Assembly (NCBI GenBank): GCA_027922465.2
Contig: BQMF02000065.1
Span: 62,001-126,000 of the forward strand
Length of the DNA stretch: 64,000 nucleotides
From: Turritopsis dohrnii
Lineage: Eukaryota; Cnidaria; Hydrozoa; Anthoathecata; Oceaniidae
Direction of reading: 5' to 3'
In this document: piece after piece, positions 8,130 through 60,461 of the stretch
How the letters are laid out: each line of letters starts with the position of its first letter
Numbering within the stretch: position 1 is the stretch's first letter
Made by a program: the position numbers and the translations under genes
The notes under the pieces: generated by a model
Seen by the model: the letters and a program-made list of their open reading frames with translations, nothing else
Told to the model about the DNA's origin: nothing
Database searches by the model: none

Positions 8130-8156
8130 GACCACGAAATTTGGGTTCAAAATGAT

Positions 8157-30794: not shown

Positions 30795-30869
30795 GTTGTC
30801 AATTTTTAATTTTAGTGTCTTGTTTTCAGCTTATTTGATTTTGACAACATTCTGTTCAAGTTTCTTTAA

Positions 30870-33087: not shown

Positions 33088-33265
33088 TACGGAAGCCCAT
33101 TAGTGCCATTTGCCGTTTGAGTTTTCAATTCTAGAGAACGTAGTTTTTCTCACTTTTCACTTTACTTACTTACGGTAAGTCTAGAGAACGCAGTTATTCC
33201 CACTTTTCACTTTACTTACGGTAAGTCTAGAGAATGCAGTTATTCCCACTTTTCACTTTACTTAC
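33088..33265 (+). repeat. Left terminal inverted repeat with three tandem units
   Basis: After the unique tip, CTAGAGAAC recurs at 33131, 33181 and 33227 in units containing CACTTTTCACTTTACTTACG. It matches the right end apart from a 2-bp indel in the tip and one fewer unit. Such subterminal repeats are usually transposase binding sites. Confidence 0.92.
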
Positions 33266-33779
33266 GCAGTTTTTCGAAACTCCTGGTGCATTCCTTGTTA
33301 CCATGCAGTTGTGCTTTCACAAAGAAACTCTTTTATCTCTGCGGGTGAGTTCAAAAACAAATTCACAAAATAAATATGGCGGCAGCAGCACGAGGAGGAA
33401 CTGGAGACACAGACGAGGTTCGTTAATCTTATGATGCATCTCTTATTTTTTTTCTTGCTGTGGTAATTGGTTCGTGTTCATTTTCTGTCTAAAGTTTCTT
33501 TTTTGCGCTATGGCTTGCTTGACAAAAAGTAACTGTATATATACAATTCGAACTTTATTTTCCTTCTTTTAGATTGTTGAATTTTTGAAGAAGAGAGGCT
33601 ATCCTCCTTCAACAATCAAAAATGTAAAAGATTCTAAGGTAAAAAAAATTTCTGGCACTTATTTTTCCATGAATATGTTTAATGCCTAATTTTAAAAACT
33701 TCGAAGTATATACTTGTCTCTTTCATTTCTATATTTTTGTTGTGTTTCAGATGCAGTTTTTAGTATACCGTAAAACGGG

Positions 33780-36122
33780 GTGACTTGAAACAAAATTCGG
33801 CGTTTTTTGAAATGATTTGCTCATAACTTTTAATCTAAGAAAGTAATTACTATGAAATTTTGAAAAAAGGTCCATTCATCTTTTGTCTTTCAGATAACGA
33901 AGTGTTCAAACTAATTGATGCACACCACCTCAAGTTATTGCTTCACAAAGTACACCTACTGAAATTTATCGTGCGGGGGTGACTTGAAACAGTGCTGTTT
34001 GCACAAAAATGTTGTTGTATAGAGCGCCAAAACAGAAAACGTGTGATCTACGATTACTTGCGTATAAAACATAAATTAAAATAATTTGTTATTGCCAGTT
34101 TCATTTTTATTAAGCGATGGAGAGTGTTAGTAAATTTTGAAAACTCAAAATTTCAGAATGGTAAAACATTGTAAAAAATAAGTTATCTGAAGCCATTAAA
34201 ATCATTAAGCGTGTGATAACGTAATTGTTTCAGAAACAATATCGAAAGCAGGCAAGATGAATTTGAATTTATAGCTAGTTTACACGACGAGGTCGGGGAA
34301 GTTCATGGCTCGCTTATAAAAATTCTACAATTTCATTGGTCAAAGGATACTCTTGTACATTTGGTCCGAAATATTTAATAATGGTACTACAGCTATGTGA
34401 CGATCGTGTCGCAAACTTTTCTTTGAATCACAGAGATTTAAGTCTAACAATGTGCTTTAGTCTTGATCTTTTATCACTTCCTTTGGCGAGCTGGTGAGCG
34501 GGATTTTTTGCATCTTTTATTGTTACAAATAATGGTTGTAGTTGGTAAATTAGTAAATGATGTAACTAGTATCAATATAAAATAATAACACTGCTTTCTA
34601 CCATGCATGATGCAACTAGGTATACCCATGTGGTCAAACCACAGACGAAAAAGACGTTCCCCACATTCCCCAAATCGTTAATATTCATGGTTCCAATCAG
34701 CCTTTCTAAGGCGCTATTTCCTTTTCGCACCCCCTGCCATATTTTTTTACTAGTTAGCTCTTCATCACGGAGATAAAAATAACCCTAATCCTAACCCTGA
34801 CCACCCTAACCCTGACCCTAACCCTGACCCTGGACGGAGAGTGGGGGGTGCCAAAAGGAAATAGCACCCCTTTCTAATTCTGCATGCATTATAAACAATG
34901 TCATGGGCAACACTTTACTTAGTCCAAAAAAAACTAAATAAACAAAACCAGTGTATGGATAAAACAAGACCAAGGCATCGTTTAAACAAAGAAATTAAAT
35001 ATTGAGGCTATGCAACTCATCATATTATCATCCTAATAATTAGCCTTATGGCTTATATACTATTTGCTGATGATAACCAAGCAAAATGCCACATAGTAAG
35101 TTAAGTTGTGAGGAATGTGTTTGTTATTAAAAACATGTTCATTTTTTGAACATGTGACAATTTGTATATGATCATATTTGCTCTTCCTTTTTTCGGTAGG
35201 GACGGTGACAAAAGAAACAGAAAAAAACATTAACTGGAACTAGTTGAATGGTAAGTACTCTTATTCTGACATTTTCCAAGTTCAAACAAATTTCCATGTA
35301 GACTCATCAAAGTAATTAGTGATTGTCAGATAGCAATCGCTGTGAGTTCTGGAGTTGTGTTAAATAATGTTATCTTGTTGCTCTTTAAAAAGATAATTTC
35401 TAACTAAAGGCTTATATATTTGAAACTAAAAATGTGGTAATAAGGTTTTGAATATAGTGCTTACCTAGTTTAGTACACACATTTTACCTTACAGGACTGT
35501 ACAACTGCCAGACTGGATACAGTGTAGCAAGGAAATTATACAGATATGTTGATTTACTTTTTTAATTTTGTTTTTACTTTGTTATGAATGACTTTCTAAA
35601 TTTATTTTATTAGTTCCTAAGTTTCATTTGGCGTATATACCAAACATTTCACCAATGGACAAATTTCTTCAGGAAAATAGAGAAATCTTTAACCTTTAAC
35701 TTCCTTAATCATGGTTAGAAATTTGTTTTATATATAACTAATAGTTTTGTGATTATCTTTTGTGGGTATTTGGAGAAAACCCGTGATCAGAAAAATATAT
35801 ATCGAAGTTACAAACAATGCGTCACAGATAATCATATAGGTTGTCTGTCTCTATTTTTTTAAGAGGAAACACTTTGACTGCTTATAAAGACAAATTGACT
35901 TGTAATTTGTGACAGATGTGTATGTAAATGTGTAGTTAATGATATTACTTTATGTAAATATCATTCATTGTATTCATGATATAACACTAAGGAAGATAAT
36001 TCTGAAACCATAATAAATCCTTTAAATTTTTAATTTATAACATTTTGATTAATGTCTGTTATGATCTTGTTATGATTTGCTTTAGTTTATTGGTTTGGAA
36101 CCTGAGATAGTTGGTTAGGACA
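33780..36122. other. Left non-coding part of the KDZ element
   Basis: No coding exon recognised before the KDZ start codon; it probably holds promoter and 5' UTR sequence. It contains a small MITE at 34710-34868. Confidence 0.5.
34710..34868. mobile_element. 159-bp MITE with internal telomere-like repeats
   Basis: Terminal inverted repeats GGCGCTATTTCCTTTTCGCA / TGCCAAAAGGAAATAGCACC (imperfect). The centre (34783-34832) is a degenerate run of ACCCTAA and ACCCTGA units, resembling the animal telomere repeat but interrupted. Confidence 0.75.
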
Positions 36123-39100
36123 ATGGATCAGCAAAACACATCATCAACAAGTATGGCATGCATCAATGGTACTACCTACTCCTCCACGAATGTCTATTCC
36201 TTCAGTCAAAATATTTTCATTTTTAATAACATACTATCTTAAAGATAATGTAGCAGACTGTCTACTATGCATCCCTTTCTGAAGTTCAATGCAATTAGAT
36301 TGGTATCTTACACTTATTTTAAACAATTTAGAGCATACAGAAGATGATCATTTGCAGCAAAGCAGTATGCTACATTTGTCTACAAATAATGGTTAGTATG
36401 TTCATTTATATTCAACTGACAATATATAACATTGTTGGCATAAATGTTTATGAATGTGCATTATTATGTATTTTTCTTTTTTATAGAAAGTGTTGAAAGA
36501 TTTTCTGCTTTGCTTATAAATTCACTGGAAGCTGCAAACTACGAAAAACACATCCAGCAGTCAATTACTTCGACCATATTCCTTGAAGATCCATCTAAAA
36601 AGCATACGTTGGGAACTCCACATATGTTAGTTGTTGAAAAGCAGATATTGTTACTAGCTTCATATCCAAATTGTACTGATGGAATTCTCTACTGTATACC
36701 ACTGGTGTTTAATTTGAATGGACAATTTATCTTATATTTGAGGTATGTGAAGAACATTTAAAAATACAAATATCTTCTTGCTTTCAAATCATATGTTTAT
36801 TGTATTATTTTCTCTTCAGGTGTTTTGAATCTGGTGTTTTGAAACAGTTTCTCCAAAGCAATTGGAAATGTTTATTTGCAGATTTAATTAAAAAGTTTAA
36901 TATTCAAGAATGTTATATTATGCATATTTTCAATGACTGGGACATTGCAGCAACATTACAACATCGTGAAAATTTGAAACCTGGTTAGTAAAAAGGATTA
37001 TATTCTCTATCTTCTGGTTCTAATGCTATGATCTTTTCTTATGTCTTCACTATAAATCATCTTATTCAGTGGCTTTACTTTTTTTAGATACTACACCTGC
37101 CAAAAATTCAGTTATGTTTAAAAATATAACTCAGCACAATAAAACATCAGTGTCAAAATATTTACCACTTGCCCATGCTACAATCCAGAAACAATTTGAT
37201 GAATATGCACCTGGTTATGTGGTGTTTTGCAAACGAATGTCCCGTTATTCAAAGGACAGTTGTAGTGCTGATAACTAGTGAGCTTTATAAACTTATTAGC
37301 TTTGGTATGAAACCTGCTAGCCTCTTTCCATCTAATTAATTCATTTTGTTTTAGTTATTTCAAGTTGCACAATCTTGGGGATTCTCTTTTGTGGGACAGA
37401 AAAATAAAAGATTACATGCTAGATCCACATCTTAATCAACTTTCTATTAATGGTGCAGTCGAAAAATTCAAAGATGTTGAATTTCTTTCTGTAGAGCAAC
37501 AGTTTTTCGTGTTATCTTCATGCCCCAATTATCATCATTGGGCTTCAAGTAAAGCACACGGAGTCAAAAAGGAAGAGCATTTCCTACCTAAAGGAAAATC
37601 ACCACGCCACCAGATTATGACTACTGTTCTTAGTAGGATTTTAGAACTTGACAATGAAAGTAGTGAAATAGATAAGATAAGAGCTCACTTAAAAACTATT
37701 CTTTCTTTTGTGGATGCTAACAAGTATCATATTGTTCCAGTCAATTTGCCTCACTTTTCGTTGGAACGAACATCAGTAAATCCTCGAAAACGTGTCAAAC
37801 TTAACTCAAATGATTTGCTAGACTTCCTTGGAATAACAGATGAAGAGTATGACACAATGAAAATCCAAACAACAGTTGGTACCCAATCTATCTACAATTC
37901 CTTTAAAAGCAACCTCATTGGAGATGGAACTCTACTATGGCGAGTGAAGTTACCTAACGATGAAATTGTGGTTATGAATGATTACAACTCGGAAACCGGA
38001 AATTTTAAGGTGGCAATATAATATGCTTTTAAAAACTGTTACATTGGTTGTAACTTTATCAGTCCTCTAAATATGTTTTATATTTCTAATTTCTTTTTTG
38101 CAGTTTAATGAATACGTGATAGTAACAAAGACAATGATGGAAGGTAGAATGACATACACTTGTACATGTGAAACATATAGAACGTTGATGTCAACAGTGT
38201 TGGTTAATTTCGGTGAAAATGATTGGGAAGGGATTACTTGTTGTCATTGTAGGATTTTTGCAGAAATTCATGACATGGTAAGATGGTAGTATATAGAGGA
38301 TCTAGAAATTGTAATGTCATTACAACGGTGTTTATACTAACGGTAATTTAATTTTTCATAGAATGTTGAAAGCATCTCAGATAGCTTGTTAGTCAAAAAA
38401 ATAAAAACTGGTATCGATACTGCAAAAGAACCGGTTGTTAACTTGCCATCAACCTACGCAGATATTGAGAAGTTTTCTGTGTGTGTTGGTTTCGATGTTG
38501 AGTTTGCGCACATGTTTAAATCGAAATCAAACAACCAAGTATATGTTAAGTGTTGCTCTGGAATTTGCCAGAGTCAGTTCAATAAGAAGATAAACATCAT
38601 TCAACTTAATACATGTACTACGCTGTGTCCACATCTTAAATTCCTTAAATGCCATCTGGACTTTCGCAAAAATGAATATGCTATGCTGCAAACGTGTAAT
38701 GCCGATGAGGTAAATGAATCAGATGTTGATGATGCTAATATCGGTGATGATGATGATGATAACAACGAAGAATGTGTCAATGAATTTCTAGAAGAAGATG
38801 GCGATGAAAGGAATGTTTCCGATGAATTTAACGAAGTAAGTTTTCATGTTGCCCAGCTGATGTTTTCATTTATAAAAGTTTTTGAATAGAAGGGACGGTA
38901 AAGAGAAAAAGAAACAGAAGTACACATATATAAACCTTGCTATATTGACTATTTGTTTCTTTCTTCAGCGGAGAGTTCCATTTAATCAATCTGATGGCTT
39001 TTGGAGATTTTATTCGCCATACCAGCGCAAAGTTGGTAATGATCCTTTCGATGACCAGTTAATTAAAAATTGCCTAGATCGACAGACGTATATATACAAA

Positions 39101-40920
39101 ATTAAAAATTCCGATTTCCATGTGTCAATGTTTCCGAGCTGTAAAACAGAAGTTTGTGAATGCAAGGTAAATGTAGTCCAAGCTTTAATATGTATCATTT
39201 ATGTATTTAGTCTTCGTGTTTTATCATTGACAACCTTTTATAATTTAGCTCCCTTGGCCAAAAGACGGAACTGGGCAATTCCTATACCAATTTGATTGCG
39301 TTTCAACATTGTACACGAAGCTTGCGTGTATTTCCGTGAATGTCTTTTCCATTATTTGCCGGAATAAAACATGCACGATCAGTTGGAATGGTGCTTGCGA
39401 AAATATTTACCGCATTTCCGGATTAGTTTGTATCGGTGAAGAGGTCTGCTGGGAATTTATCGATATGGTAACAGAAATGAAGTGCAACTTCAAGGCATTT
39501 TGTTCTCTAATGAACAAAACGTACATCCGCCACCAATCCCCTAGATTGTTTATGTCAGCAAAAACATTTCGGAAGTTATTTTTTTCGTGGGCTTCTAGTC
39601 AAAGTCGTGAATTTCGTACCCCGTGCCATTGGTGTGGATTTACTCCTAAAGTTCTGGCTTGCGATGCAACGAAGGTTGGCATTCACCAGAAACATTGTAG
39701 CATAAAACCAGTTGAGCCTTCCATACGTACCGATTTACAAAATACCCTTCATCGCCGTTTCGATAGATGTTTTCTCGCATATCCTCAAAAGTCTGACGAT
39801 ATACCAATATCCAAGCAAAAAGAAACCGAAAAGATTATCCGAGAGTCACGCATTCATCTCAAAGAACTTACGAAGTTCCCAGTCACACTCGATTTGACAG
39901 AAATTCAATTGGCTCAGAAGAATCGAAATCTACTAGCTGTTTTCCCAGCTGATGGCAAGAAGTTATTGGAACGATTTATTAACAAAGAACTTTCTCCAAA
40001 GCAACATATTGCCGCAGCGAAGTTTTTCCATCTTCTTAGTTTTGATGCTCCTTTAAGGGCATTAATTTCTTTATCAACGGTTTCATTGCTATCGACGCTG
40101 TCAGTAACGTCAGTTCCAATATCTGCAGTGCGTTGTCATTCTCCTCATTTATCCGATTTTCTTCAAGAATTCTATGTTAATGGTTCACTGGATCATGATG
40201 CTTTTGCTATAGTTTCTTATCTTCGTGATAAAGTAAAAGACATTCACAAGAGCGATATCGAGCCAGAAAATTGTTTGCCGATTCCTGGCTCATATAACCC
40301 TCCTCAGTTTGGCCGGGCGTATTATTTTTCGGCAAGTGGAGAACAGATCAGACGACCACGATCATTCAGTGTAGATGTCAACCCACATAATAATCATGAT
40401 GATCAGCCTTCGACCTCCTCCTGCAAAAAGATCTACCCAGTTGTAACCAAAAAGGGAACCAATTTTTGTTTTTATGGTTTTGTCCAATGCATGGACACTG
40501 TTATGGTTGCCACATTGTAAACGGAAGTGAAGGAAGAAAAGATCCGGCCTATTCCCTTTACACCCATCTTGAAAAGCCGCCAGAAGTAATTTTTTACGAC
40601 TTTGCTTGTGGTTTGGAGGAATACTGCTTAAATCGTGAAGCAGGATACTTTAAAGATACGAGATTTTATCATGACATCTTCCACGGATTTAGTCACAGCT
40701 GTTCTTCGCTTTACAGTAGCAAAGCAATGCAAGATCTTCGTGTCGTTAACACTAGTATATGTGAGCAATTTAATTCATACCTTCAATGTATCAAGGCCTC
40801 AGCTAAGCAGATGTCGCAAGAGCATTTCATGTTTTTCATCCAGTACATGATAAATATATGGAATGAGAAAAAGAAAAAGTTGTTCGATCAAAAACTTCAG
40901 ATTGCTTTATCGGGTGCTGA
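36123..40920 (+). CDS. KDZ-family transposase (HMGXB3-like), 10 exons, one frameshift
   Basis: Exons: 36123-36168, 36332-36391, 36487-36742, 36820-36983, 37088-37277, 37355-38009, 38104-38277, 38362-38835, 38969-39166, 39249-40920; total about 1296 aa. In order: a conserved N-terminal domain; a SWIM-like zinc finger (YTCTCETY ... GITCCHC, exon 7); an acidic tract (DDDDDNNEE near 38750); a cysteine cluster (CRNKTCTISWNGAC). The KDZ core has D in VLACDATKVGI, D in IFYDFAC, H and C in DIFHGFSHSC, and E in SICEQFNSY. The frame slips by one base in the T-run near 40465-40474, between GTNFCF and WFCPMHGHCYG, so this copy is probably dead or mis-sequenced. A donor (GA|GTAAGT) at 40921 implies at least one further 3' exon, not found. 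It is the transposase of the surrounding 18.5-kb element. Confidence 0.85.
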
Positions 40921-41147
40921 GTAAGTGCGTTTTCTTTTTTTACTTAGAGTAATAAAATTTCTTTTTGTTAATAATTTGCATCACAGTAGCAGCAAATATC
41001 CTTCTTTTTAATACGAAAGAGAAATAATTGCAAAACATTAAATGTTTCTTCTATATCTATTTCCCTTTTCGTTATCAAATGATAGCCCATATCCTGATGA
41101 CCTTGCAAATAAGATGGCAAAATAAGTAATTACCTTGAGATATTTGC

Positions 41148-44100
41148 TTTCACGGAACAAGTGCTCATTACGGATAGTTGAGATCGCATAATAAGAAATC
41201 CACGTTTCATCGAGAAATCTGTCTGGTTGGTGAACAAGGTGATGCATGCGTTACCTTTCACGGAATAAGTGCTCGTTTCGGGAAGTTCAGTTCGCATAAT
41301 AAGAACTCGACAATTCATCGACAAATCTGTCTGGTTGGTGAACAAGCTGATGCATGCGTTACCTTTCACGGAACAAGTGCTCGTTTCGGGAAGTTCAGTT
41401 CGCATAATAAGAAATCGACAGTTCATCAACAAATCTGTCTGGTTGGTGAACAAGGTGATGCATGCGTTACCTTTCACGGAATAACTACTCGTTTCGGGAA
41501 GTTCAGTTCGCATAATAAGAACTCGACAATTCATCGACAAATCTATCTTGTAGGTGAACAAGGTGATGCATGCGGTTACCTTTTACGGAACAAGTGCTCG
41601 TATCGGGAAGTTCAGTTCGCATAATAAGAACTCGACAGTTCATCAACAAATCTGTCTGGTTAGTGAACAAGGTGGTGCATGCGGTTACCTTTCACGGAAC
41701 AAGTGCTCGTTTCGGGAAGTTCAGTTCGCATAATAAAAAATCGACAGTTCATCAACAAATCTGTCTGGTTAGTGAAGAAGGTGATCCATGCGTTACATTT
41801 CACGGAACAAGTGCTCGTTTCGGGAACTTCATTTTGCATAATAAGAACTCGACAGTTCATCAACAAATCTGTCTGGTAAGTGAACAAGGTGGTGCATGCG
41901 GTTACCTTTCACGGAACAAGTGCTCGTTTTGGGAAGTTCAGTTCGCATAATAAGAAATCGACAATTCATCGACAAATCTGTCTTGTAGGTGAACAAGGTG
42001 GTGCATGCGGTTACCTTTCACGGAACAAGTGCTCGTTTTGGGAAGTTCAGTTCGCATAATAAGAACTCGACAATTCATCGACAAATCTGTCTTGTAGGTG
42101 AACAAGGTGGTGCATGCGTTACCTTTCACGGAATAAGTGCTCTTTTCGGGAAGTTCAGTTCACATAATAAAAAATCGACAGTTCATCAACAAATCTGTCT
42201 GGTTAGTGAAGAAGGTGATCCATGCGTTACATTTCACGGAACAAGTGCTCGTTTCGGGAAGTTCATTTTGCATAATAAGAACTCGACAGTTCATCAACAA
42301 ATCTGTCTGGTAAGTGAACAAGGTGGTGCATGCGGTTACCTTTCACGGAACAAGTGCTCGTTTTGGGAAGTTCAGTTCGCATAATAAGAAATCGACAATT
42401 CATCGACAAATCTGTCTTGTAGGTGAACAAGGTGGTGCATGCGGTTACCTTTCACGGAACAAGTGCTCGTTTTGGGAAGTTCAGTTCGCATAATAAGAAC
42501 TCGACAATTCATCGACAAATCTGTCTTGTAGGTGAACAAGGTGGTGCATGCGTTACCTTTCACGGAATAAGTGCTCTTTTTGGGAAGTTCAGTTCGCATA
42601 ATAAGAAATCGACAGTTCATCAACAAATCTGTCTGGTTAGTGAAGAAGGTGATCCATGCGTTACATTTCACGGAACAAGTGCTCGTTTCGGGAAGTTCAG
42701 TTCGCATAATAAGAACTCGACGTTTCATCAACAAATCTGTCTGGTTGGTGAACAAGGTGATGCATGCGTTACCTTTCACGGAACAAGTGCTCGTTTCGGG
42801 AAGTTCAGTTCGCATAATAAGAACTCGACAATTCATCGACGAATCTGTCTTGTAGGTGAACAAGGTGGTGCATGCGGTTACCTTTCACGGAAAAAGTGCT
42901 CGTATCGGGAAGTTCAGTTCGCATAATAAGAAATCGACAGTTCATCAACAAATCTGTCTGGTTGGTGAACAAGGTGATGCATGCGTTACCTTTCACGGTA
43001 CAAGTGCTCGTTTCGGGAAGTTCAGTTTGCATAATAAGAACTCGACAATTCATCGACGAATCTGTCTTGTAGGTGAACAAGGTGATGCATGCGGTTACCT
43101 TTCACGGAACAAGTGCTCGTATCGGGAAGTTCAGTTTGCATAATAAGAACTCGACAGTTCATCGACAAATCTGTCTGGTTAGTGAAGAAGGTGATGCATG
43201 CGTTACCTTTCACGGAATAACTGCTCGTTTCGGGAAGTTCAGTTCGCATAATAAGAACTCGACAATTCATCGACAAATCTATCTTGTAGGTGAACAAGGT
43301 GATGCATGCGGTTACCTTTTACGGAACAAGTGCTCGTATCGGGAAGTTCAGTTCGCATAATAAGAACTCGACAGTTCATCAACAAATCTGTCTGGTTAGT
43401 GAACAAGGTGGTGCATGCGGTTACCTTTCACGGAACAAGTGCTCGTTTCGGGAAGTTCAGTTCGCATAATAAAAAATCGACAGTTCATCAACAAATCTGT
43501 CTGGTTAGTGAAGAAGGTGATCCATGCGTTACATTTCACGGAACAAGTGCTCGTTTCGGGAAGTTCATTTTGCATAATAAGAACTCGACAGTTCATCAAC
43601 AAATCTGTCTGGTAAGTGAACAAGGTGGTGCATGCGGTTACCTTTCACGGAACAAGTGCTCGTTTTGGGAAGTTCAGTTCGCATAATAAGAAATCGACAA
43701 TTCATCGACAAATCTGTCTTGTAGGTGAACAAGGTGGTGCATGCGGTTACCTTTCACGGAACAAGTGCTCGTTTTGGGAAGTTCAGTTCGCATAATAAGA
43801 ACTCGACAATTCATCGACAAATCTGTCTTGTAGGTGAACAAGGTGGTGCATGCGTTACCTTTCACGGAATAAGTGCTCTTTTCGGGAAGTTCAGTTCGCA
43901 TAATAAAAAATCGACAGTTCATCAACAAATCTGTCTGGTTAGTGAAGAAAGTGATCCATGCGTTACATTTCACGGAACAAGTGCTCGTTTCGGGAAGTTC
44001 ATTTTGCATAATAAGAACTCGACAGTTCATCAACAAATCTGTCTGGTAAGTGAACAAGGTGGTGCATGCGGTTACCTTTCACGGAACAAGTGCTCGTTTT

Positions 44101-45287
44101 GGGAAGTTCAGTTCGCATAATAAGAAATCGACAATTCATCGACAAATCTGTCTTGTAGGTGAACAAGGTGGTGCATGCGGTTACCTTTCACGGAACAAGT
44201 GCTCGTTTTGGGAAGTTCAGTTCGCATAATAAGAACTCGACAATTCATCGACAAATCTGTCTTGTAGGTGAACAAGGTGGTGCATGCGTTACCTTTCACG
44301 GAATAAGTGCTCTTTTCGGGAAGTTCAGTTCGCATAATAAGAAATCGACAGTTCATCAACAAATCTGTCTGGTTAGTGAAGAAGGTGATCCATGCGTTAC
44401 ATTTCACGGAACAAGTGCTCGTTTCGGGAAGTTCAGTTCGCATAATAAGAACTCGACGTTTCATCAACAAATCTGTCTGGTTGGTGAACAAGGTGATGCA
44501 TGCGTTACCTTTCACGGAACAAGTGCTCGTTTCGGGAAGTTCAGTTCGCATAATAAGAACTCGACAATTCATCGACGAATCTGTCTTGTAGGTGAACAAG
44601 GTGATGCATGCGGTTACCTTTCACGGAAAAAGTGCTCGTATCGGGAAGTTCAGTTCGCATAATAAGAAATCGACAGTTCATCAACAAATCTGTCTGGTTG
44701 GTGAACAAGGTGATGCATGCGTTACCTTTCACGGAACAAGTGCTCGTTTCGGGAAGTTCAGTTCGCATAATAAGAACTCGACAATTCATCGACGAATCCG
44801 TCTTGTAGGTGAACAAGGTGATGCATGCGGTTACCTTTCACGGAACAAGTGCTCGTATCGGGAAGTTCAGTTTGCATAATAAGAACTCGACAGTTCATCG
44901 ACAAATCTGTCTGGTTAGTGAACAAGGTGATGCATGCGTTACCTTTCACGGAACAAGTGCTCGTTTCGGGAAGTTCAGTTCGCATAATAAGAACTCGACA
45001 ATTCATCGACAAATCTGTCTTGTAGGTGAACAAGGTGATGCAAGCGGTTACCTTTCACGGAACAAGTGCTCGTTTCGGGAAGTTCAGTTCGCATAATAAG
45101 AACTCGACAGTTCATCAACAAATCTGTCTGGTTAGTAAACAAGGTGATCCATGCGTTACATTTCACGGAACAAGTGCTCGTTTCGGGAAGTTCAGTTCGC
45201 ATAATAAGAACTCGACAATTCATCGAGAAATCTGTCTGGTTGGTGAACAAGGTGATGCATGCGAAACAAGTGCTTATTTCGGGAATG
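41148..45287 (+). repeat. 4.1-kb satellite: 108/109-bp monomers in higher-order units
   Basis: About 38 tandem copies of a unit containing TTCATCGACAAATCTGTCT, GGTGAACAAGGTG and TTCGGGAAGTTCAGTTCGCA. Monomers are 108 bp (GCATGCGTTACC) or 109 bp (GCATGCGGTTACC). Higher-order copies are clear: blocks 434 bp apart (41989/42423; 43725/44159) equal four monomers. Blocks 1736 bp apart (41570/43306, 42856/44592, 43073/44809) equal sixteen. The array starts 230 bp after the last recognised KDZ exon. Open frames of up to 167 codons occur on both strands because 108 is a multiple of three; I do not call them genes. Confidence 0.95.
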
Positions 45288-48200: not shown

Positions 48201-50029
48201 CAATAAGTAATTAATTAAATATCCAAGGTGATAATAAAGTTTATCAAAAAAGTACAAGTAAAAATTAATTAAACAATTAACAAAACAATGAGGTAACAGA
48301 AAAAATAGATCAAATAAAAATACAATGTGTAAAAACAGAACCTTAAAGAACAAAACCAAAGTAGCAACACTTAAGTTTGGAAATTTTTTTGATTATAAGT
48401 TTTTGAATATTATGCTTGCACCACAGACCTTCCTCAAGTGAAATATACCTAATTGATTATTAATGCTTATTCACAAACTTAAGGAATACAAAAATCATTT
48501 TAGTGAACCACAGAAGAAATTTTGGACAGTAATTAGCTGTCACAAAGAATCACTTGTGCTAATTATGGTCTACATAGAAGTATCTGACTAACTGCACTCT
48601 TTCATTGTGTTTCAGTAATGGATGAAAATGGGTGTAACAAAAGGCTTAGCAATGGAATGCTATGTCAACAATAACAATACTCTCAAGTGCCTCATTGTAG
48701 GAGGGTCATAATAAGCAGGGGAGGTTGTGCTGCAAGGGAAATATAATAAAAAGGGGAGGGTGCACATTAAAAGGGAAAAAAGGAAACATTATACTTTCTG
48801 TTAAAAAATGTTGATGTTCTTCTTGTTCATATTATTTATTTGTTTGTTCTCGTTAAGATGTTAAGATTTTGTTGCATCTGAAATGATTGTCTCTATTATT
48901 ATTTTAATAACTTCCTCATCACTAGCCAAAAATCTACTGAAAAAGTTAAGTTGCACCTTGAAAATGTCTAACATGTCTAATTTTAGTTACTGACCTAGTG
49001 AATTCATAAAACGGGAGGGTTCTAATAATGGGGTAGGGGTGGTGGATTTAGAAAAATTTGGTACTCTGGAGAGGAGGTCGTAATAAAGTTAAATGGATGG
49101 TGAACTTTTCCCAAAAATGCAAGAGACCTCCCCCTACAATTAGGCACTGGAGAGTAAAAGACTAACACCAGGAAAGCGCATGGATAATCAAGAAATACAA
49201 ATTATAAGACAAATTACTAGAGTCCTTTTGTTATCCAAGCTGCCCTTCATACAACAAACATTAATTTTCACAATGTTCATTCTTGTCATTGAAATTTCTC
49301 ATAAGTTATGAAATTCTCAGGATTAATAGTTAATGGCAACAAATCATCAGTTATAATCTCACAAACTCTATCGCAATAACTGTTCCATTATATAGTACTT
49401 CTGACGCTACCACAACTCCACAATAATAATGTATTTGCTCAATTTTCACAATTTATGATTTTTCCTCTTTCTTTGGCAAACACATATTTCAGTAGTCTGT
49501 TTTTTCCAATTTTCCAATTTTGCGTATAGATATCTAGTTAATATTAAATTAGTTTTGCAATCTACTATTACAGCAAACATATTAATCACTAAAAGGCAAT
49601 ATATGGACTCTACTGAAGATATGAAAAAATTTGTTTTTATATTTATAATTGTTAAGTTGGACTGAAAATTGACTAAATTTACTTTGCTGCCATGTTTCTA
49701 TGAGCTTCTTCCACTGAAATTTTTAATCGTACTGCGCAAGCGTTGTGGTTGGTTGTGAAATTTTTATTTCTATTTTTATTAATTAATTTGCATAAGGTAC
49801 ATAATACTTAATCTTTTTATTTAAATAAATTTTTAGGGATATAAGTTGAGAACTAACAAGATAAAAACATTTGGAAAGTCATCATTGCATTGGGAATCAA
49901 AGAATGATTTATCCATATATACCATTACTCAATAATATTAAATCACAGCGCAATTATCTAAATGGGAAGAGACTATAAATAATAGCTGTCGAGCCAATTC
50001 TTTAGCAAACAGTCAGGGAAATCAGCTTA
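45288..50029. other. AT-rich, apparently non-coding interior of the KDZ element
   Basis: No convincing gene on either strand. There is a possible exon-like open stretch at about 45347-45521 (plus), with a non-biased composition but no start or matching splice site. Other contents are a CCA-rich run at about 46750 and A-runs (47231-47250). Confidence 0.5.
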
Positions 50030-50311
50030 GGGGACATTCACATAGCACGTACGCACAAAAAGTTGAAAATCAGACCCCCCTCCCCCCTTGTACGCAAACA
50101 TACGCATTTACTCCACCAATTACAATGTATCCCATAATTATTCTAATCAGCTAAAATCGATTTATTTCAAGGAAAAAAAGCAACAAAAAATATTTTTTTG
50201 TGTGTACGTACTTTTCCCCAGCACCCCTACCCTCCCCCTAGTACGCAAGCGTACGCTTTTGCAGAGACCCCCCTTCCCCCCTTTGTGCGTACATACTATG
50301 TGAATGTCCCC
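50030..50311. mobile_element. 282-bp PIF/Harbinger-type MITE
   Basis: Terminal inverted repeats GGGGACATTCACATAG / CTATGTGAATGTCCCC are flanked by TTA on both sides (50027-50029 and 50312-50314), the 3-bp duplication typical of PIF/Harbinger. Inner GTACGCA / TGCGTAC motifs repeat in both orientations. Confidence 0.85.
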
Positions 50312-50519
50312 TTATCACGGGACCCCTCAAACATGTGATCCCTTTTCTGAACCAAGCTGTGTGTCTGTGTTGAATTAGTTTGCAGGATAGCAAAAGTCAT
50401 CTGATCTGAACTGACATTGTCTTGCTATATTATATTAGTATTTTAAGTACAGCATGACCAAACACTACAATGAAGTACGAATGCAAGAAGAAAACAACAA
50501 ACAGAAAGCAAGATAGATA

Positions 50520-50649
50520 CCGTCAACCAACAAAACTTTGAACAGCATCAAAACTTTGAATGTGGTTCGATGTGGTATGTTTATTTTGTTGATACGGTTG
50601 TTTAGCTGTTCAAAGTTCTGACGCTGTTCAAAGTTTTGTTGGTTGACGG
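50520..50649. mobile_element. 130-bp MITE with TA target site
   Basis: A 27-bp perfect inverted repeat begins CCGTCAACCAACAAAACTTT on the left and is mirrored on the right (to 50649). TA flanks both ends. The first four bases (CCGT) and the TA flanks are the same as for the surrounding KDZ element; this may be chance. Confidence 0.8.
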
Positions 50650-53120
50650 TATGTATTAAAGGAAAATCAGATCAGCTAATGTGACATGACATGTGGGCCG
50701 GATAGTTTCAAAATATGCCTTTTACAATTGCAGCATAAACCCTGGATCCTGCAAATTTAGCTGTTTTCCTTGACTGGGGCAAATAAAGAGGTATATATTG
50801 CATTTCTGCTTGTCAACTAATCATAAGAGATCATAAGAAAAAAGGTATCTAGACTGCTCTACTTAACATAACATTATGATATTTCTTGGAGGCTAACATT
50901 TAGTATTAGTCTTTGACTATTTATGTTAGTCTCCTTGCTGCCATGTGATATGTTAACAAATCCTCTCTGGGTTGTTAAAATATTTTAGCTACCACTTACT
51001 TTAAAAACTGAGAGCTTCTTTAGAGGGGGGAGACAACCTCCAACATAAACCCACAGAGACATTTTGCTAAGCTGAGTGTGTAGGATGTGGAATGATTGGG
51101 AAAATCATAATACAAGACGACAAATTTAAGAAAAATTAGAAAATTATATCAAATAAGAAAAGCAAAAAAGCTTTCATCCTCACTCTGTAGCATGTTTTGG
51201 TTCATGAGCTACACAACTTTAAGTGCACCGCATGCATCGTGGCCAATCCGAAACGTTTATGTACTAGAGCGAGCTATGAACCTCCCCGTACTGCGACTGT
51301 ACTGTAAATTGAATTATGTATAATAAAATTCCTGTTTCAGAGTATCCAACTTTCTTTTTCGTGCTTCTCTTAGTTTAGGATATATTTACTGTACCATTTC
51401 AATAGAAATGTCACTTAGAAATTGATCCATCGTCTTTGTTTTTTCACACAAGCGCTTCTTCATTTCATCCGGATTACGCGAATTTATTGCGCCATTGCAT
51501 ATGACATGTATATGGAGTATGAAACGGGGTCCATATATCAAAAAGGCAAGAAGAAGCCCTGGTAACGAGGTTAAGTATGAAATTGTAGAAGTAACAACAT
51601 GCATCCCGTCTATCGCCAATTTCACAATAAGTATGGTGTGCCCATAGCCTTGTTGAACGGAGGATATAATTGCAGCACCGATTTGTTCAGAATTCTGATT
51701 AGTATTCAGTTATGGTACTTAGTAAAACGAGTCTATTGAGGTTCAATTCTTAGATTATTGACCCTTTCTATTATGGAACTTATAATAATTACCAAATGAC
51801 TTATACCACCTTTGAAACTCCATCGGCTGAACTTTATCACACATCAATGATTCGATTACATCATAATTGATAAGAATATTTATGCAATAATCGAAGAGAC
51901 GAAGTGTATCGAGTGAAAAAAAACGAATCATTTTAATGGGATATATCTCTATCAATTTTAAACATTTTTCAATAAAATTTTGGAATTACGCCATTTGACC
52001 TTTCTATTTTACAAATATAAAAAAATATATATTTGGCGATATGCTGTATCGCCGTGACGAGCTATTTTACAGCATCACTGATTTTCGGCGCTTTTTTCAT
52101 CTTCAGCTCCCGAAGAACTTCCTTGATTGAAAAACTTTTTCCATCGAATGTTGCGCTAGATAGTCTCCGAACGGAATCTGAAAAAAATTCGGAGTTTCAT
52201 TCATTATTTCATGAGAAATAACGTTTTTTCGACGCTGTTTCAAGTCACCCCGGGTGTTTCAAGTCACCCCGCTTTACGGTACCAAACCAAGATACCTTAT
52301 CCTTATGCTAAAGTTTTTGATAATCTTCCAGAAAAAAACTAAAAAATAAATAAGTACAAATTTTTTTTCCAGAGAAGCCAAGAAATTTTTAGCTACATGA
52401 TTTTCTTTCTCATTTTGGCATATTTTGCTGGTCATTTTGATTTCGTTTAGTTTCCCAAACATTCTATCATTGTCTTTCATATCACAACATTTTGTCTCAT
52501 TACCCACTCATAGTGAACTTTGAATTTTAATATGTTCAAGTTCAAAATATTTTATCATGTATATAAATAACTAATGCAGGGTTCACACCAAACCGATTTC
52601 TCATGTTGGCTTTCTTAGGTTTGATATGAGCCTCATATAATCAAATCTTTTATTTTTCTTTGTCAACTTGTGCTAGTTTTTAAGCTTGAATTTATAGGCA
52701 GAAGAACTATTTGTATTGTTATGGATGCAGACTCGATGTTGAATAAAATAAATAAAATGAATGTGTGTCATGTGTGTAGTATTTATGCTTATGGTGAGCT
52801 GTTGTGAATTGAACTGTTCTTCTGAACATCTTTCATTTGATGCTGAAAGTTGATCTCCTTGTGTCTTTGTGCATAAAGTAGTAAAGTACAATTATTTAAC
52901 AAGACGCGGAATTTCCCATCTTAATTAGTTTTTCTGAAGTGACATTTTCTATGTGTGTTGATTTTATTTCTTATATATTTTGCTTTTATGTTTTTCTTGT
53001 TTTTCAAACTCAAGGCTAGGAACATTGTTTTCTCTTTTGCTTTTGTTTTGTTTTGTTTTGTTTTGTTTTATCTTGTTTCACAATTTGAAGAATGAAATGT
53101 ATATATCACTTTTATTGCAG
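50650..53120. other. Right end of the KDZ element and rest of HECT intron 2
   Basis: Apart from the weak ORF at 51386-51694, no gene is supported. 52280-53120 is the remaining intron of the HECT gene. It ends in a T-rich tract with a TTTTG repeat (about 53040-53068) and the acceptor TTTATTGCAG. Confidence 0.5.
51386..51694 (-). CDS. Possible small ORF/exon in the KDZ element (102 aa)
   Basis: An open minus-strand frame directly after a TACTAATCAG acceptor-like site. It encodes a product with a hydrophobic stretch (ISYLTSLPGLLLAFLIYG) and a charged tail (PDEMKKRLCEKTKTMDQF). No family is recognised. It could be an exon of an accessory gene or a chance ORF in AT-rich DNA. Confidence 0.25.
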   Translation of the reverse strand, partial: NSEQIGAAIISSVQQGYGHTILIVKLAIDGMHVVTSTISYLTSLPGLLLAFLIYGPRFILHIHVICNGAINSRNPDEMKKRLCEKTKTMDQFLSDISIEMVQ

Positions 53121-55864
53121 GTTACATCAGAGTCAGTACATTTATTGAAGATATCTGACTTCAAAACCTTTGGTGTAGCTTTAGCTGATGCAAGATTGTT
53201 AGTGGCCACATTCAAGAGAGAATCGAGTGAAGTTCATTAAAAGGAGCTTGTCAATTCCATCAGAACAAACAGTAAGGCTAAGGCTAACTTCAGTTCAGTT
53301 GCTAGTAAGAGGACTACAGTGACTGTAGAATTTTCATGGTATCACTGGTGTTCCAAAGAAAAAAGATATAAAATGGTAAGGCGTGCAAAGGGTGGAGGTT
53401 TAAGGCAAAAGAGTTTCAAAAAAGAGACTTCTTTAAAATACATTTATGATGAGGTGAAACAAATATATTTCCCAAATGGTCGGAATAAGGAAGGTATTAT
53501 TTCAGTTATGGACTCTTCTATTTGTGGTGGTGATTTAGAAGCTATCGAAATAGATTGTGAAGATGAAAGTCCTACGTTAGTGGAGTACATGAATTTAAAT
53601 GCCCTTAAGTATGTCAAGTTCGTTTTAAAAACAAAGAAAAGATCTTGGAGCGACTCGTGGGATCAAAAGTCATCAGGTGATTCATCTAGTGAGGAATTTA
53701 CCATTAATCCTTCACTCCCACCACTTTCAATATTTTCATCTACAGTGTGCTTGCCAACCACACCCCCACAATCACGGTTATCTGCACTTAGTGCCACATC
53801 ATCAACTTTGTCCCAAGTATCTGAAACTCCACACTTTGAGATGTTGGAAAAACCTAATGTGCTTGATGAAGATGCCCTTGCAAGATCTGAACTTATGAGT
53901 TATCAAGATAGAATGTATGCAGAAAGTCTCAAGCTAGATCAAGCAAAAGAAGCTGCAAAGCAAGGACATGGAGCAATAAAAAACACAGTGAAGAGTCGAG
54001 GAAGAAAAGAAAAGAGACCTATGGCCAGGCTGCTAAATTCAGAACCTGACTTGGATGAAAACAGTGTGGTGATAGTTGTTAGTCATACAGAGTTAGGCCG
54101 TGTACAACGTTTGTTTTCTGCACAAGAAACATTTGAGCAGGTATACTTTTGGGTCAGCACTTTGCATGATAATCCAGAACATTTCACATTAAGTCTTGGA
54201 AGACGGAATTGTGTAATAACACCAGACCAACCAGTGAATGTTGCCGACAGACGGCTTGTGATGATGAATAGCAATAGATTCAAAAGCATTTGATTTTCCA
54301 AGGTTGATGTTGCTCACTGACAATGATGTCATTAATGAAAGCAATGGCTACAACAGTTCTACTAATCAAAAACCTGGGATCATTGATTCTGTAAAAATCT
54401 ATTGTCCCATCTGTCACAAAGAGTAACCAGCTGCAACAATTGAAGATCATGCTGATAATTGTGCCAATAGTACTTACATTGAAGTGATTGAGTCAGATAA
54501 TGATGCAAATAGTCAAAGTTCTGAAGGCATGCAAGATGCAGAATGTAGTGCCACAAGTATTAACAAAGTTGATGATGATGTTGATATTTTGAAGAAATTA
54601 AAAATGTTGGTTGATAGTTGTGATCTTGATCACTCCAAAGGAATTTCTCTTAAAGTTAGACGTAACCATTGTTTTGAGGACTTTCTACAGAAGTTTAAGC
54701 AACCATGGGTTCGAAGTAAAATTGGATTGCTGATCTCTGTGTCATTCTATGGAGAAAATGGTGTGGATATGGGAGGACTTCGAAGAGAATTTTTTACCGG
54801 TCAGTATTTGTGGAGTTGAGGAGCTTGTGAAGGTTGTAGAGTTTATAAAAGAACTTTTCTTTTATACATTTGTAAATAGATCATTATTTTCATTGCATGC
54901 ACAAAACTCTTCAATTATCATTTTAGGATCATACAAATTCATGCACCAACCTCTTATTCTTGCTTTCCATTGTTTAGAAGCTATTGAAGATTTCAAGATG
55001 CAGTTACTACAAAAAGATATTGATGGCTATGTGCCTCAAATTAATCGGTTTGCTGATTTGGGGAATGGCAGTTACAAATTGGCTGGAGAATTGATAGCAT
55101 CATCTATGACCATGAATGGCCCTGCTCCGAATTTTTTTGCACCTTGGGTATTTCATTATATGGCATATGGATTGGAAAATCTATTGGAAGTTATTACACT
55201 TAGTGAGACGTCGAAGTTATATGGCATATACAATAAGGTATGTTCAGTTTTCATCAAGATCGAGGGAGTGGGAAAGGTCCTTAAATATTAAGCATAATGC
55301 TTTATGTATAAATTATTTAGGTGCTATCCGTGGATGATGTAGTTGAGCTTCGTCAACTGTTGACCAGCGATGAAGGCATGGATATGCTTTCAGAGATAGG
55401 CTATACTGGCGTTCCAATGTGGGCTGAGTTGGATGCCAAAAAATCTATTTGCAGGTATGGTATATGTTTTCTTTTGAATGAATGTTTAAAAAACGTATGT
55501 GCTGGATGTGTTGATTACAGTTGTCTTTCTCAAACTGCCTTATTAAATTACCTGACTGGTCAAGTTTTCATTTTCAGGTCAATTATCCTGAAAGAAAAGG
55601 TTCAGCCGTCCTTGCCAGTCTTGGATCAAATTCGTGAAGGCTTGGCATGCTACAATTTGTTGTCGAAGATACAGGCGAACCCTGAGATTTTTAAATACGC
55701 ATTCTGTGACAATGATTTGCTGAAATGGACTTATGACAAATTTGAAGAATTCGTAAAGCCAAGTTTTAGTGAAGAAGGATCTACTAAGAAAATTAAGGAA
55801 GTAGATACTTTTAAATCTTTTATGGACGTTATGGAGTCATGCTTTTATGAAGGTATACCTTTTC

Positions 55865-55893
55865 ATTGTTTTTTTTTTTTTTTTTTTTTTTTT
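55865..55893 (+). repeat. Poly-T tract in HECT intron 6
   Basis: A run of more than 20 T directly after the donor of the exon ending at 55852. Confidence 0.9.
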
Positions 55894-56300
55894 GAGTACA
55901 GTAATTGAATTTTTGTTAATTCTCCGTTTTAAAACCTGCACACCCTGGTGTTGTTGGTTTCGAGAAATTGATATTTTCTATTATTTGTTATAAAATTTAA
56001 GGTCTGCATTTTAATTCATGTGTAGTATTATATTGTGTTTTAGATTCAGAGATCGATCTGGATACCATGATGAAGTTTTTTTCTGGTGTCAAATCTATCC
56101 CTCCTCTTGGTATGCCAACTTCCTTGACGGTGAACTTCAAACATTGGTGCGACGATATGCCGAAGAAATGTTTATGTAAACCAACTATTTCTACCTGTGC
56201 TCTGGCTTTGACTCTTCCTGTCCATTACAGAGATTTTAATTCAATGAAAAAAGCGATGTTTGATGCAGTTCGTATGAATCAAGGATTTGACAATATTTGA

Positions 56301-56918: not shown

Positions 56919-59900
56919 TTACACATTCCCGATAAGTAATAGTAACTGTTCATATAAATTTCTGCCTTCTGTCACTGTTTTTGGAAAGCTAAGCTGGTGC
57001 TGTACCATTAGAGCTAGACCCAGTTTTTCAAAGTCATCAGAGCAACAAAACACTTTCTTTTCCGTCTTGTACGAATCTGCCACCGAAAGTGCGTTTGCAG
57101 TGACTTTTATTATACGATTTGTTGTGCCTGAAAAGAATGTTTACGCAGTATTTTGTAACATAGACAATTATTTGTTGATTTCTTAACATGTGAAATTACC
57201 AAAACTTTCTGGGATGGCGTAGATTAGATCTGGACGACCACTTGGGCATTCTTGGTTTGGATAACGACGTATACGATGCGTGTTATGGAGTTCAATCATT
57301 TCATTCAGTTCTCTTTGAATAAGTTCACCGAAGCAGAATTTCAAACATTCCCTAAAATGAAGCAATGACGGCAAGTTTTGGGAAATAACTGTCTAATTAG
57401 TATTATGTCTAATTAATTTTCAAAATTTTAGTTACCTCTGAATTGGATCAGAACTATCCCATGAACCATCGCTTTCCATATCCTGAAGATTGAAGTAAAA
57501 AAAAAATGAAGGTCGATGTTGTTTTGTTTCACTTAGAATAAGAAGAGAAAGAGGAGAACCACAACCTCGAACCCAGGGTCTCTTGCCTTTTCGTTTGCCG
57601 CTATCCGTATATCGAAAAGGCAAGAGACCCTGGGTTCGAGGTTGAGGAGAACCAGAGACACCTTAAAGTAGTTTATCCACCACAGCGACATGCTACGCTT
57701 CAACATGGACCAGAATGCTTCAATTCTCTAGAACAATAATGTTAGTTTTAAGGAAAAAGTGCAATTTTGGTTTCAAATTCAAGTTAACTGCACGATGATA
57801 ATTACCTGGTTTGCTGTTGATTGACCAGTACGAAAGCTATTGTAGCCGGCCAAACTGTCTCTGTTGAACCAACGTAAAAAGGTTTGGATTGCTGCGACAT
57901 TTAAATTTTCATTACCTCGATCTGTTCTTATAACTCTTGCTGTTCCTGAAATAACAAAAACTACCGTGGCTGATTCGGACACTTTACTTTCATATTATCT
58001 ACAAACGCATGTGAAAACACGCGGCCGCGCCTTATAACACGCGGCCGCCAGTTATAACACGCGGCCGCCAGTTATAATACGCGGCCGCGCTTTTTGCCGC
58101 CTATTTTCCCGCTTGTTTTATTTTCTGGTCTGCAATATATCTTTGTCAAACAAGCGGAGAAAAGACGCGGCCGCGTATTTTACTGCTTATTTTATTTCTT
58201 AAAGCAATGATAAAAGGCGCGGCAAAAGACGCGGCCGCGTGTTTTCACATCATTTTTTTCTTGTTCTGGTCTGGATTTGGAGTTTTGTAGTTTTTAGAAG
58301 AATAAAACTTAATTGTATATTTTTGCTTTGAATTTTGATGATTGGAGCCATGGAGGAAATCTTTACATCAAGAATCCAACTGTCTCTACCTGAGCTAGTG
58401 ACATACTATCACAACGTCCAGCCAAAGCTCAAATACAATGATATATGTATGATTATCAATGAAAAACATAAAATTGGAGTAACGGTGAGACAGATAAAAT
58501 GGATTTGTCAAAAGTCAAACTTGCGTCGTAAAAGCAACATTAGTTGCCGATTACTAGAAGACATCATAAGAAATGAACTTACTATATCATCGGCCGAAAC
58601 AAAAACTCCAGAAAATAAACAACAAACAATATCCAGACCAGAACAAGAAAAAAATGATGTGAAAACACGCGGCCGCGTCTTTTGCCGCGCCTTTTATCAT
58701 TGCTTTAAGAAATAAAATAAGCAGTAAAATACGCGGCCGCGTCTTTTCTCCGCTTGTTTGACAAAGATATATTGCAGACCAGAAAATAAAACAAGCGGGA
58801 AAATAGGCGGTAAAAAGCGCGGCCGCGTATTATAACTGGCGGCCGCGTGTTATAACTGGCGGCCGCGTGTTATAAGGCGCGGCCGCGTGTTTTCACATGC
58901 GTTTGTAGATAATATGAAAGTAAAGTGTCCGAATCAGCCACGGTAAAAAACGGAGAAATTATCATTGTTATTATTAAGTATTATTATCTTATATAGGCCA
59001 AAGAAAATATCAGGCATACAAATGATTTACCTCCTGCCTTCTCGACATAATCAACATAATAGCCAGCCACGACTTTTGGACAGTTATTTGAGGGACCACA
59101 TTCTAACCAAAGAATTTTTCTTGAATACCTATGAAACGAGAACAGGCTTTCTTTTCTTTTCACAGCAATCAAATAAGAACTTGATAAAGTTAAAATTTCA
59201 CGTTACCCGTCAATGCACCCATGAATAGCAAATCCAAACGGTTTTAGCTTGTCGTATCCATCTAGATGCCAAATATCGTTGGGACCCTATAAGGTCAAGT
59301 CATGAAAAGGTGAAACTCATCTGACGTATTGAAATCAAGCTTCTAAACTGCCATAAACCTTGCAAACATATTTTCTTCGTTTCAATCTGCGTGTTTTTCT
59401 GGATTCCACACCATCTGGGTCAAGCACCCTCTGTAGTTCCGATACAGCATTTCTAAAACGAATATTTTATTTTAGATTTTTTAGTTTTTGTGTTTTAGTT
59501 TATCATACCAAAGATGACTTTTATCAATGCATACATTGTTTACCTGCCTACTTGAACACCGTATAAAGTTTTCAATTTGTGGTGCATGCTTCGATAGCCA
59601 AGAAGACTTCCACTGCCGTGTATTTCGTTCTAAAAAATGCAGAACAATAAAAATTCAAACAGTGCCAATCAGATATATTTTTTACAGATATGCCTGATCA
59701 TGAGATTCCTTGGAACAAAGAGCTAAAGTGCAGAATAAGATAAAAGCCATCCAACTTACTTCTATATAGTGGCATATTTCGACAAATGATTTATTTGTTT
59801 TTCTTCGGTATAACTGTAACCTTGCTAAGATTCTTTTTAGGTGACGCAAACTAATAAATAACTTGACGTTTATCTGTTTGTGCAACATTAACACATTAAC

Positions 59901-60099
59901 AAAGTCAACGCTGAATTACTGTACCTCAATTTTATGCCATGGACTCCAAGCAAAACAGCAATTATCTCCTTATATGCATACCCTTTACCAAAGTATTCCC
60001 AAATCAAGACATCACCTGATAAACAATTGCAATATAAAGAAAAAATCCAAACATAGCGACTGATTTAGGGAAATAAAAATTACACTTACGATCGTCCAT
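56919..60099 (-). CDS. IS3EU-type (rve) DDE transposase, 387 aa, 12 exons, intact
   Basis: Exons (minus): 60099-60090, 60015-59925, 59850-59760, 59629-59544, 59452-59359, 59286-59207, 59128-59031, 57945-57806, 57727-57662, 57482-57436, 57351-57200, 57127-56919. All junctions are GT-AG; total 1164 nt with no stop. The start is ATG at 60099, because only this ATG gives the right phase into exon 2. An N-terminal helix-turn-helix (about residues 6-50: YFGKGYAYKEI, LSLRHLKRIL) is followed by LLGYRSMHHKL. The integrase-fold core has D133 in WHLDGYDKLKP, D192 in IRTDRGNEN and E233 in RIEAFWSMLKRS. NTHRIRRYP and PSGRPDLIYAIP lie in the C-terminal part. It cuts and joins the ends of the surrounding element. 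Two introns carry later insertions (57962-58945 and 57562-57644). Confidence 0.9.
57562..57644. mobile_element. 83-bp perfect hairpin element with 10-bp direct repeats
   Basis: Two 32-bp arms (57562-57593 and 57613-57644) are exact inverse copies, starting CAACCTCGAACCCAGGGTC, around a 19-nt loop. AGGAGAACCA lies directly outside both ends (57552-57561 and 57645-57654), a likely target-site duplication. It sits in the intron between transposase exons 9 and 10. The arm contains GGGTTCGAGGTT, similar to a tRNA B box, but no tRNA fold is seen. Confidence 0.85.
57962..58945 (+). mobile_element. 984-bp non-autonomous IS3EU relative with NotI-site arrays
   Basis: Ends TACCGTGGCTGATTCGGACA and its perfect inverse, flanked by AAAAAC on both sides (57956-57961 and 58946-58951). 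Long inverted repeats (about 270 bp) carry repeated GCGGCCGC palindromes spaced by TTATAACA-type linkers. The interior ORF (58335-58715) encodes only a helix-turn-helix like that of the host transposase. It is inserted in the intron between exons 7 and 8 of the larger element's transposase. Confidence 0.9.
58335..58715 (+). pseudogene. Isolated IS3EU-type helix-turn-helix ORF (126 aa)
   Basis: Residues about 17-65 (LPELVTYYHNVQPKLKYNDI and ITVRQIKWICQ-like GVTVRQIKWICQKSNLRRKS) align by eye with residues 6-50 of the 387-aa transposase: length, Y-x-E/D-I turn and the terminal LRRK/YRRK agree. No catalytic domain follows. The last ~25 codons are the terminal repeat itself. It may bind DNA; it cannot catalyse transposition. 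Confidence 0.6.
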
Positions 60100-60189
60100 C
60101 CTTGTTTGTTGACGAATGCAGCTACCATTTTACATTTTCAAACATAATACAAAATGTGGTATGGATAGCACACTGAGCCTTAACTAAAG

Positions 60190-60455
60190 TGAAAAGTGGG
60201 AATAAGTGCGTTCTCTAGACTTACCGTAAGTAAAGTGAAAAGTGGGAATAACTGCATTCTCTAGACTTACCGTAAGTAAAGTGAAAAGTGGGAATAACTG
60301 CGTTCTCTAGACTTACCGTAAGTAAGTAAAGTGAAAAGTGGGAAAAACTACGTTCTCTAGAGTTACGAAGAGTAAGTGAAGTGAAAAGTGAGAAAAACTA
60401 CGTTCTCTAGAATTGAAAACTCAAACGGCAAATATGGCACTAATGGGCTTCCGTA
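60190..60455 (-). repeat. Right terminal inverted repeat with five tandem units
   Basis: Five CTAGA/GTGAAAAGTG units of ~46-55 bp precede the unique tip TGGCACTAATGGGCTTCCGT. It is the inverse of 33088-33265 with extra units. It lies about 90 bp upstream of the transposase start, so it probably also contains its promoter. Confidence 0.92.
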
Positions 60456-60461
60456 AATATG

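Follow-up and report, generated by a model that had tools for sequence, protein, structure and literature searches.

Eukaryotic DNA transposons of the IS3EU group have been included in Repbase since 2013, and in the sections of the literature cited here they are described as having TA..TA termini, target duplications of usually 6 bp and an integrase-like DDE transposase without an HHCC motif, and are grouped with GingerRoot (PMC10045372). The termini of fungal IS3EU elements read TAYGG..CCRTA, and TET/JBP genes are found in them between the transposase gene and an alpha-kinase gene, the latter two being oppositely oriented; the TET/JBP genes were proposed to let these fungal transposons escape methylation (PMC12730594). 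The transposases of Ginger1 carry OTU or Ulp1 domains, from which it was proposed that the ubiquitin pathway acts in transposition (Bao et al., 2010; PMC2836005). Here we describe an element at positions 33088-60455 of a stretch of 64,000 nucleotides (the window, C65:62001-126000) from the genome of the hydrozoan Turritopsis dohrnii (435.9 Mb, 891 contigs). This element is very probably one IS3EU DNA transposon that entered an interspersed repeat in one piece and later received nested insertions, and its two convergent core genes, encoding a transposase and a predicted HECT ubiquitin ligase, form a pair that recurs in the genome.

The integrase-like DDE core without HHCC, the TA..TA ends and the 6-bp duplication are shared with IS3EU, and the termini TACGG..CCGTA also fit the fungal consensus TAYGG..CCRTA (PMC12730594). 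The element differs from IS3EU in the presence of a HECT ubiquitin-ligase gene and in a transposase gene of 12 exons, whereas its best-scoring relatives in the same genome are mostly encoded by one open frame. As in the fungal elements, an accessory enzyme gene is oriented opposite to the transposase; however, the accessory genes described in the cited sections of that paper encode a kinase and a dioxygenase rather than a ubiquitin ligase, and belong to another host group (PMC12730594). Ginger1 and the transposases with OTU, Ulp1 or ubiquitin-hydrolase domains are likewise integrase-like DNA transposons tied to the ubiquitin/SUMO pathway. Their domains, however, serve in the removal of ubiquitin or SUMO and are located within the transposase protein in Ginger1, while a separate gene for a predicted enzyme of the attaching type is found in the window (PMC2836005). 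IS3EU and HECT were not found together in one paper in the open-licence literature of PubMed Central, a search that left Repbase entries and subscription papers outside. The element is thus of a known kind and its HECT partner gene looks new, with the possibility that Repbase holds such entries. A preliminary description of this DNA had regarded an IS3-like eukaryotic element with a ubiquitin-ligase passenger as undescribed, which stands for the HECT partner within that literature and not for the type of element.

The element begins with TACGGAAGCCC... at position 33088 (also written TACGGAAG...) and ends with ...GGGCTTCCGTA at position 60455 (also ...CTTCCGTA). Its inverted repeats were identical at 136 of 137 positions in the best pairing of units and at 174 of 190 positions when aligned from near the very ends. 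The 22-base terminus occurred at two places in the window with up to three mismatches, and in none of 100 shuffled sequences. The left flank belongs to an interspersed repeat with at least 42 matches (of 123 candidates, 40 were scored). All three copies of this host repeat that were fetched carry a single AATATG and continue uninterrupted across the join, with identities of 98.4, 95.6 and 90.6% to the joined flanks of the window containing one AATATG; the third copy has three additional bases directly past the join. These three repeat copies are related empty sites for the element. An origin of the inverted repeats and matching hexamers by chance or by assembly mis-join is refuted by the empty sites, and is further contradicted by the shuffled sequences and by the identical duplications around other copies given below, so that its probability is close to nil. 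The preliminary description had proposed a single mobile unit with inverse copies of about 180 bp lying 27.4 kb apart, composed of the same tandem units and bordered by the same six bases, and with single-AATATG empty sites to be sought; all of this was confirmed.

The 213-bp left end matched the genome 72 times, and many of these matches arise from shifts of register inside one array. Among 19 fetched copies with both ends, the 6-bp flanks were identical in 14, had one mismatch in three and formed no duplication in two; a twentieth row of this listing joins the ends of different copies and was excluded. Eighteen of the 19 copies were 732-1,382 bp long without any match to the window outside the terminal repeats, and are classified from these sequence features as non-autonomous relatives. 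The other one, from C42 (L036 1745-9732), is a 7,988-bp copy with the duplication GTGTAA and retroelement-like open frames, which look BEL/Pao-like by eye. It is also non-autonomous and does not represent the two-gene form.

A second full copy was located at C122:495234-514308 (19,075 bp) with the duplication ATTTCT on both sides. The HECT and transposase genes are present in the same order and orientation as in the window, together with neither of the two later insertions, a KDZ-transposase element and a palindromic element. Its pieces are 85-99.7% identical to the window outside the terminal arrays, and its length is due to other inserts. The left terminus reads TATGG, while the right end has deviating last bases (CTTCCTAA). 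Both genes were also present in a third close copy (C717), and in the fetched part of C691 the left end and first exons were retained, the remainder being 73% identical or unmatched. Subtraction of both later insertions and one duplication copy from the window element leaves 7862 bp with both genes, in agreement with the compact transposon of about 7.9 kb proposed earlier, except that in this copy the HECT frame is broken and only the transposase is open. The undisturbed copies of about 8 kb that were to be looked for were not seen for this exact family among the copies fetched.

The pairing of the two genes was analyzed across the genome with two HECT-gene queries and two transposase queries, whose match lists make the counts below lower bounds. 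The genome is very rich in IS3EU-like transposases, with 1901 and 1687 first-look candidates for the two transposase queries. Matches to the N-terminal region of the HECT gene lay within 10 kb of the 125 listed window-transposase matches (of 1901 candidates) in 37 of 105 cases, and those to the HECT middle region within 10 kb of 96 C221-transposase matches in 40 of 103 cases, against 0.64 and 0.48 expected under uniform placement with duplicates and haplotypes uncollapsed; by eye, the 37 pairs form about 20 groups. All 37 N-region pairs were convergent, with the transposase downstream on the opposite strand, as were 39 of the 40 middle-region pairs, 38 of these being less than 1.4 kb apart. 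Overall, 76 of 77 neighbouring matches were convergent. The N-region and window-transposase lists were used whole. From the middle-region list 103 of 118 rows were used, nearly all of the 15 dropped rows being second pieces of a listed locus, although both rows of one C90 locus were dropped as well; from the C221-transposase list 96 of 99 rows were used, with three second pieces dropped. A HECT or N-region match was present within 10 kb of at least 79 of the 221 listed transposase loci. A convergent IS3EU transposase was found downstream in five of six fetched HECT loci (C614, C122:15.6-23.1 kb, C717, C221 and C89). At the C221 locus (L044), one HECT gene has two IS3EU transposases near it within 7 kb; these differ from each other, are oppositely oriented and represent nested or adjacent elements.

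The same pair was found in a divergent family of about 6.5 kb, represented by C829, with a transposase 50% identical to that of the window. The N-terminal region of its HECT gene is in an open frame upstream of a frame with a Pfam HECT match (E 3.1e-11, 43.9 bits). Both genes lie between TACGGTGGATCAGAGGTGAC and its near-inverse (18/20) at C829 53975-60453, with TCTTTG on both sides. The HECT gene is a recurrent convergent partner in this genome and not a one-off; the preliminary description had spoken of a passenger.

The positions of the first two HECT exons just inside the left end, and of the last HECT exons and the integrase-like transposase inside the right end, were as described previously (Table 1). 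The HECT domain was recognized by Pfam (E 2.5e-7, 31.1 bits vs. a cut-off of 23.9) in a read-through spliced model. Its N-terminal half matches Rsp5, and the C-terminal cysteine aligned with the cysteine of Rsp5 TCFNRVDLP, a stretch that alone scored 2.3 bits. The catalytic-cysteine motif was present in the window and in all eight fetched loci examined. Ahead of the HECT domain, a CPIC...H...C stretch resembles zinc fingers that bind ubiquitin, its best match (E 0.021) being below cut-off. An alternative model, with the first HECT stop spliced out in a 71-base intron, was rejected; since C122 reads open there without it, this stop was attributed to damage. Between families, HECT divergence was 0.43-0.58 at nonsynonymous sites (dN) and ranged from 1.69 to saturation at synonymous sites (dS); the HECT sequence has therefore been under constraint over long times.

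The transposase core was assigned to Pfam PF24764 (rva_4; E 6.1e-34), with rve and HTH_21 under cut-off. Its introns have GT donors and AG acceptors, and D133, D192 and E233 are at positions that do not vary in an alignment of nine sequences. No HHCC motif was matched before the core by a simple pattern search of model residues 1-130. The best relatives were 64% and 59% identical (1231 relatives in the protein search, 120 listed), and cnidarian proteins (Clytia, Montipora) were among the named relatives listed. The same frame is open in C122 with 13 differences (15 in another alignment), and two early stops and an indel were found in C717. Viral contigs gave no confirmed match to the transposase or its alignment, and none to the terminal 20-mer. 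In prokaryote genome contigs one relative was detected (L001); its contig is assigned to a sponge-symbiont bacterium, and there was no HECT match at this locus. This is an intron-bearing transposase of animal type, likely reflecting host contamination of the bacterial bin.

Both later insertions proposed in the preliminary description were supported by empty sites. The first is absent from the matching place in C122 and C691. Its transposase matches the Pfam KDZ (Kyakuja-Dileera-Zisupton) domain (E 4.4e-8, 33.5 bits vs. a cut-off of 26.6), with a weak CxC4 match. The left boundary was fixed by the beginning of genome matches at base 33766: of 40 scored matches (413 candidates), 37 including the window itself start there and three one base later. 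These 40 scored matches are 97-100% identical, and with 413 candidates the family is therefore young and numerous. KDZ elements have an 8-bp target duplication; for the inner element no clear one was found (no duplication of at least 5 bases within 6 bases of its ends, where the empty sites themselves are diverged). It also differs in containing a 108-bp tandem array. The second insertion is a palindrome with the ends TACCG..CGGTA, and its site is uninterrupted in C122 with one AAAAAC. These ends, and an open frame whose product resembles IS3EU transposases in their N-terminal part, give it the appearance of a non-autonomous IS3EU relative inserted into an IS3EU. The product of this frame may possibly be a DNA-binding-only competitor or repressor.

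Two other repeats were observed in the window. A perfect inverted repeat at 6486-7767 and 8105-9386 (arms of 1282 nt, 100% identical, spacer of 337 nt) is far from the element and possibly represents a foldback element or a recent inversion. A tandem array with a 32-bp unit in about 19 registers is located at 30087-30950.

Table 1. Coordinates of the features of the IS3EU element and its nested insertions in the window.
Feature	Position	Strand	Remarks
Left target-site duplication AATATG	33082-33087		present once in each of three related empty sites
Left terminal inverted repeat	33088-33266	+	3 tandem units of ~46-50 bp
HECT exon 1	33376-33417	+	MAAAARGGTGDTDE, donor GT; conserved in C122
HECT exon 2	33573-33638	+	conserved in C122
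KDZ-transposase element	33766-52281		18,516 bp, in HECT intron; ends TACCGTAAAACGGGG.../...CCCCGCTTTACGGTA
KDZ element coding pieces	39249-40921	+	CxC4-like 39249-40517, KDZ 40403-40921
108/109-bp tandem array inside KDZ element	41033-45300		end approximate
HECT N-terminal conserved region and linker	53121-54290	+	one in-frame stop; frame lost near end
HECT CPIC..H..C stretch, then HECT domain start (VDMGGLRREFF)	54316-54799	+	one in-frame stop
HECT domain exon	54926-55237	+	
HECT domain exon	55321-55854	+	
HECT C-lobe exon	56042-56300	+	catalytic cysteine codon 56196-56198; TISTCALALTLP
IS3EU transposase gene	56919-60099	-	12 exons, 388 aa, no in-frame stop; D133, D192, E233
AAAAAC target duplication, left copy	57956-57961		
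Palindromic element	57962-58945		arms 57962-58295 and 58612-58945, in transposase intron
Open frame in palindromic element spacer	58332-58712	+	match limited to the N-terminal part of IS3EU transposase proteins, E 2.7e-6
AAAAAC target duplication, right copy	58946-58951		
Right terminal inverted repeat	60178-60455	-	5 tandem units
Right target-site duplication AATATG	60456-60461		

The pairing at dozens of genome sites suggests that the HECT enzyme helps the elements to move or persist, and we infer from the sequences that the HECT protein is probably a selected partner useful to the element and not cargo. A broader reading, which we put forward tentatively and give slightly less than an even chance, is that animal IS3EU elements are two-component transposons in which the HECT ligase would be a standing selected partner controlling transposition or host defence via ubiquitin. 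Several observations weigh against the main reading of a transposon with a selected HECT partner. The HECT frame of the window has two stops and one frame break, each open in C122. The HECT gene of C122 itself lacks a stretch of about 140 bp of the HECT domain and has further stops or indels, and in that of C717 one stop and one indel were found within the compared part. The ratio of nonsynonymous to synonymous differences (pN/pS) was 0.64-0.91 among these three copies, which gives few signs of constraint since their spread; such near-neutral differences among close copies would be as expected for decaying insertions. No relatives of the HECT protein were found at E 0.001 in protein-database searches with 7991 and 3678 scored candidates. 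When the lists were crossed, 0 of 103 HECT matches lay near the window-transposase list and 1 of 105 N-region matches near the C221-transposase list; each query therefore seems to detect no more than a subset of its own, the lists covering different subfamilies. A HECT or N-region match within 10 kb was lacking at 142 of the 221 listed transposase loci, and therefore many IS3EU elements may lack HECT or carry an undetected one. At the C186 HECT locus, the 7.4 kb that were read contained no transposase.

The damage in the three close copies and the many transposase loci with no HECT nearby are also what would be seen if a host HECT gene, a common type of gene in hosts, had been caught once by the element, or the element had landed in one, and the gene was carried along as incidental cargo. 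However, the HECT gene lies inside terminal repeats and a target duplication in the window, in C122 and in the divergent C829 family, the convergent arrangement is nearly invariable among the neighbouring matches, and the HECT sequence has been constrained across families. Incidental capture is largely refuted by this recurrence, and we regard it as very unlikely.

The following mechanism can be envisaged by analogy with the family. The transposase would bind the repeated terminal units and, as a DDE enzyme, carry out cut-and-paste transposition with a 6-bp staggered cut of the target. The same transposase would also mobilise the many non-autonomous copies of about 0.7-1.4 kb that share its ends. 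The predicted HECT ligase could ubiquitinate either host silencing or defence factors or the transposase and transpososome, the remaining probability falling to an unknown target or to none. Action against the host, in which silencing or antiviral-type factors such as the small-RNA or chromatin machinery would be marked for degradation or relocation, could well be the case, at nearly even probability. It finds a parallel in the TET/JBP and alpha-kinase genes of fungal IS3EU (PMC12730594), and is also favoured by the conservation of the catalytic-cysteine motif. Action on its own transposition, in which the ligase would ubiquitinate the transposase or the post-cleavage complex and thereby limit its dose or clear it for repair, is possible and somewhat more doubtful. 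This would be in line with the proposal made for transposase-linked ubiquitin/SUMO proteases (Bao et al., 2010; PMC2836005) and with the maintenance of the gene pair in one unit. The co-divergence test of transposase and HECT lends it little weight, being informative for close copies only: the correlation (r 0.745, reached by 12 of 5040 permutations) stems from near-identical copies and drops to 0.47 with four families, and one locus in the test (L044) has two transposases.

As a recurrent second gene, a ubiquitin ligase is the opposite enzyme type to the proteases on which the proposal of Bao et al. (2010) was based, and it makes the idea of ubiquitin acting in transposition testable. Some of the HECT genes counted in the genomes of animals may belong to transposons. 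If the HECT ligase is indeed a standing partner, the spread of IS3EU would account for part of the HECT gene expansions in such genomes.

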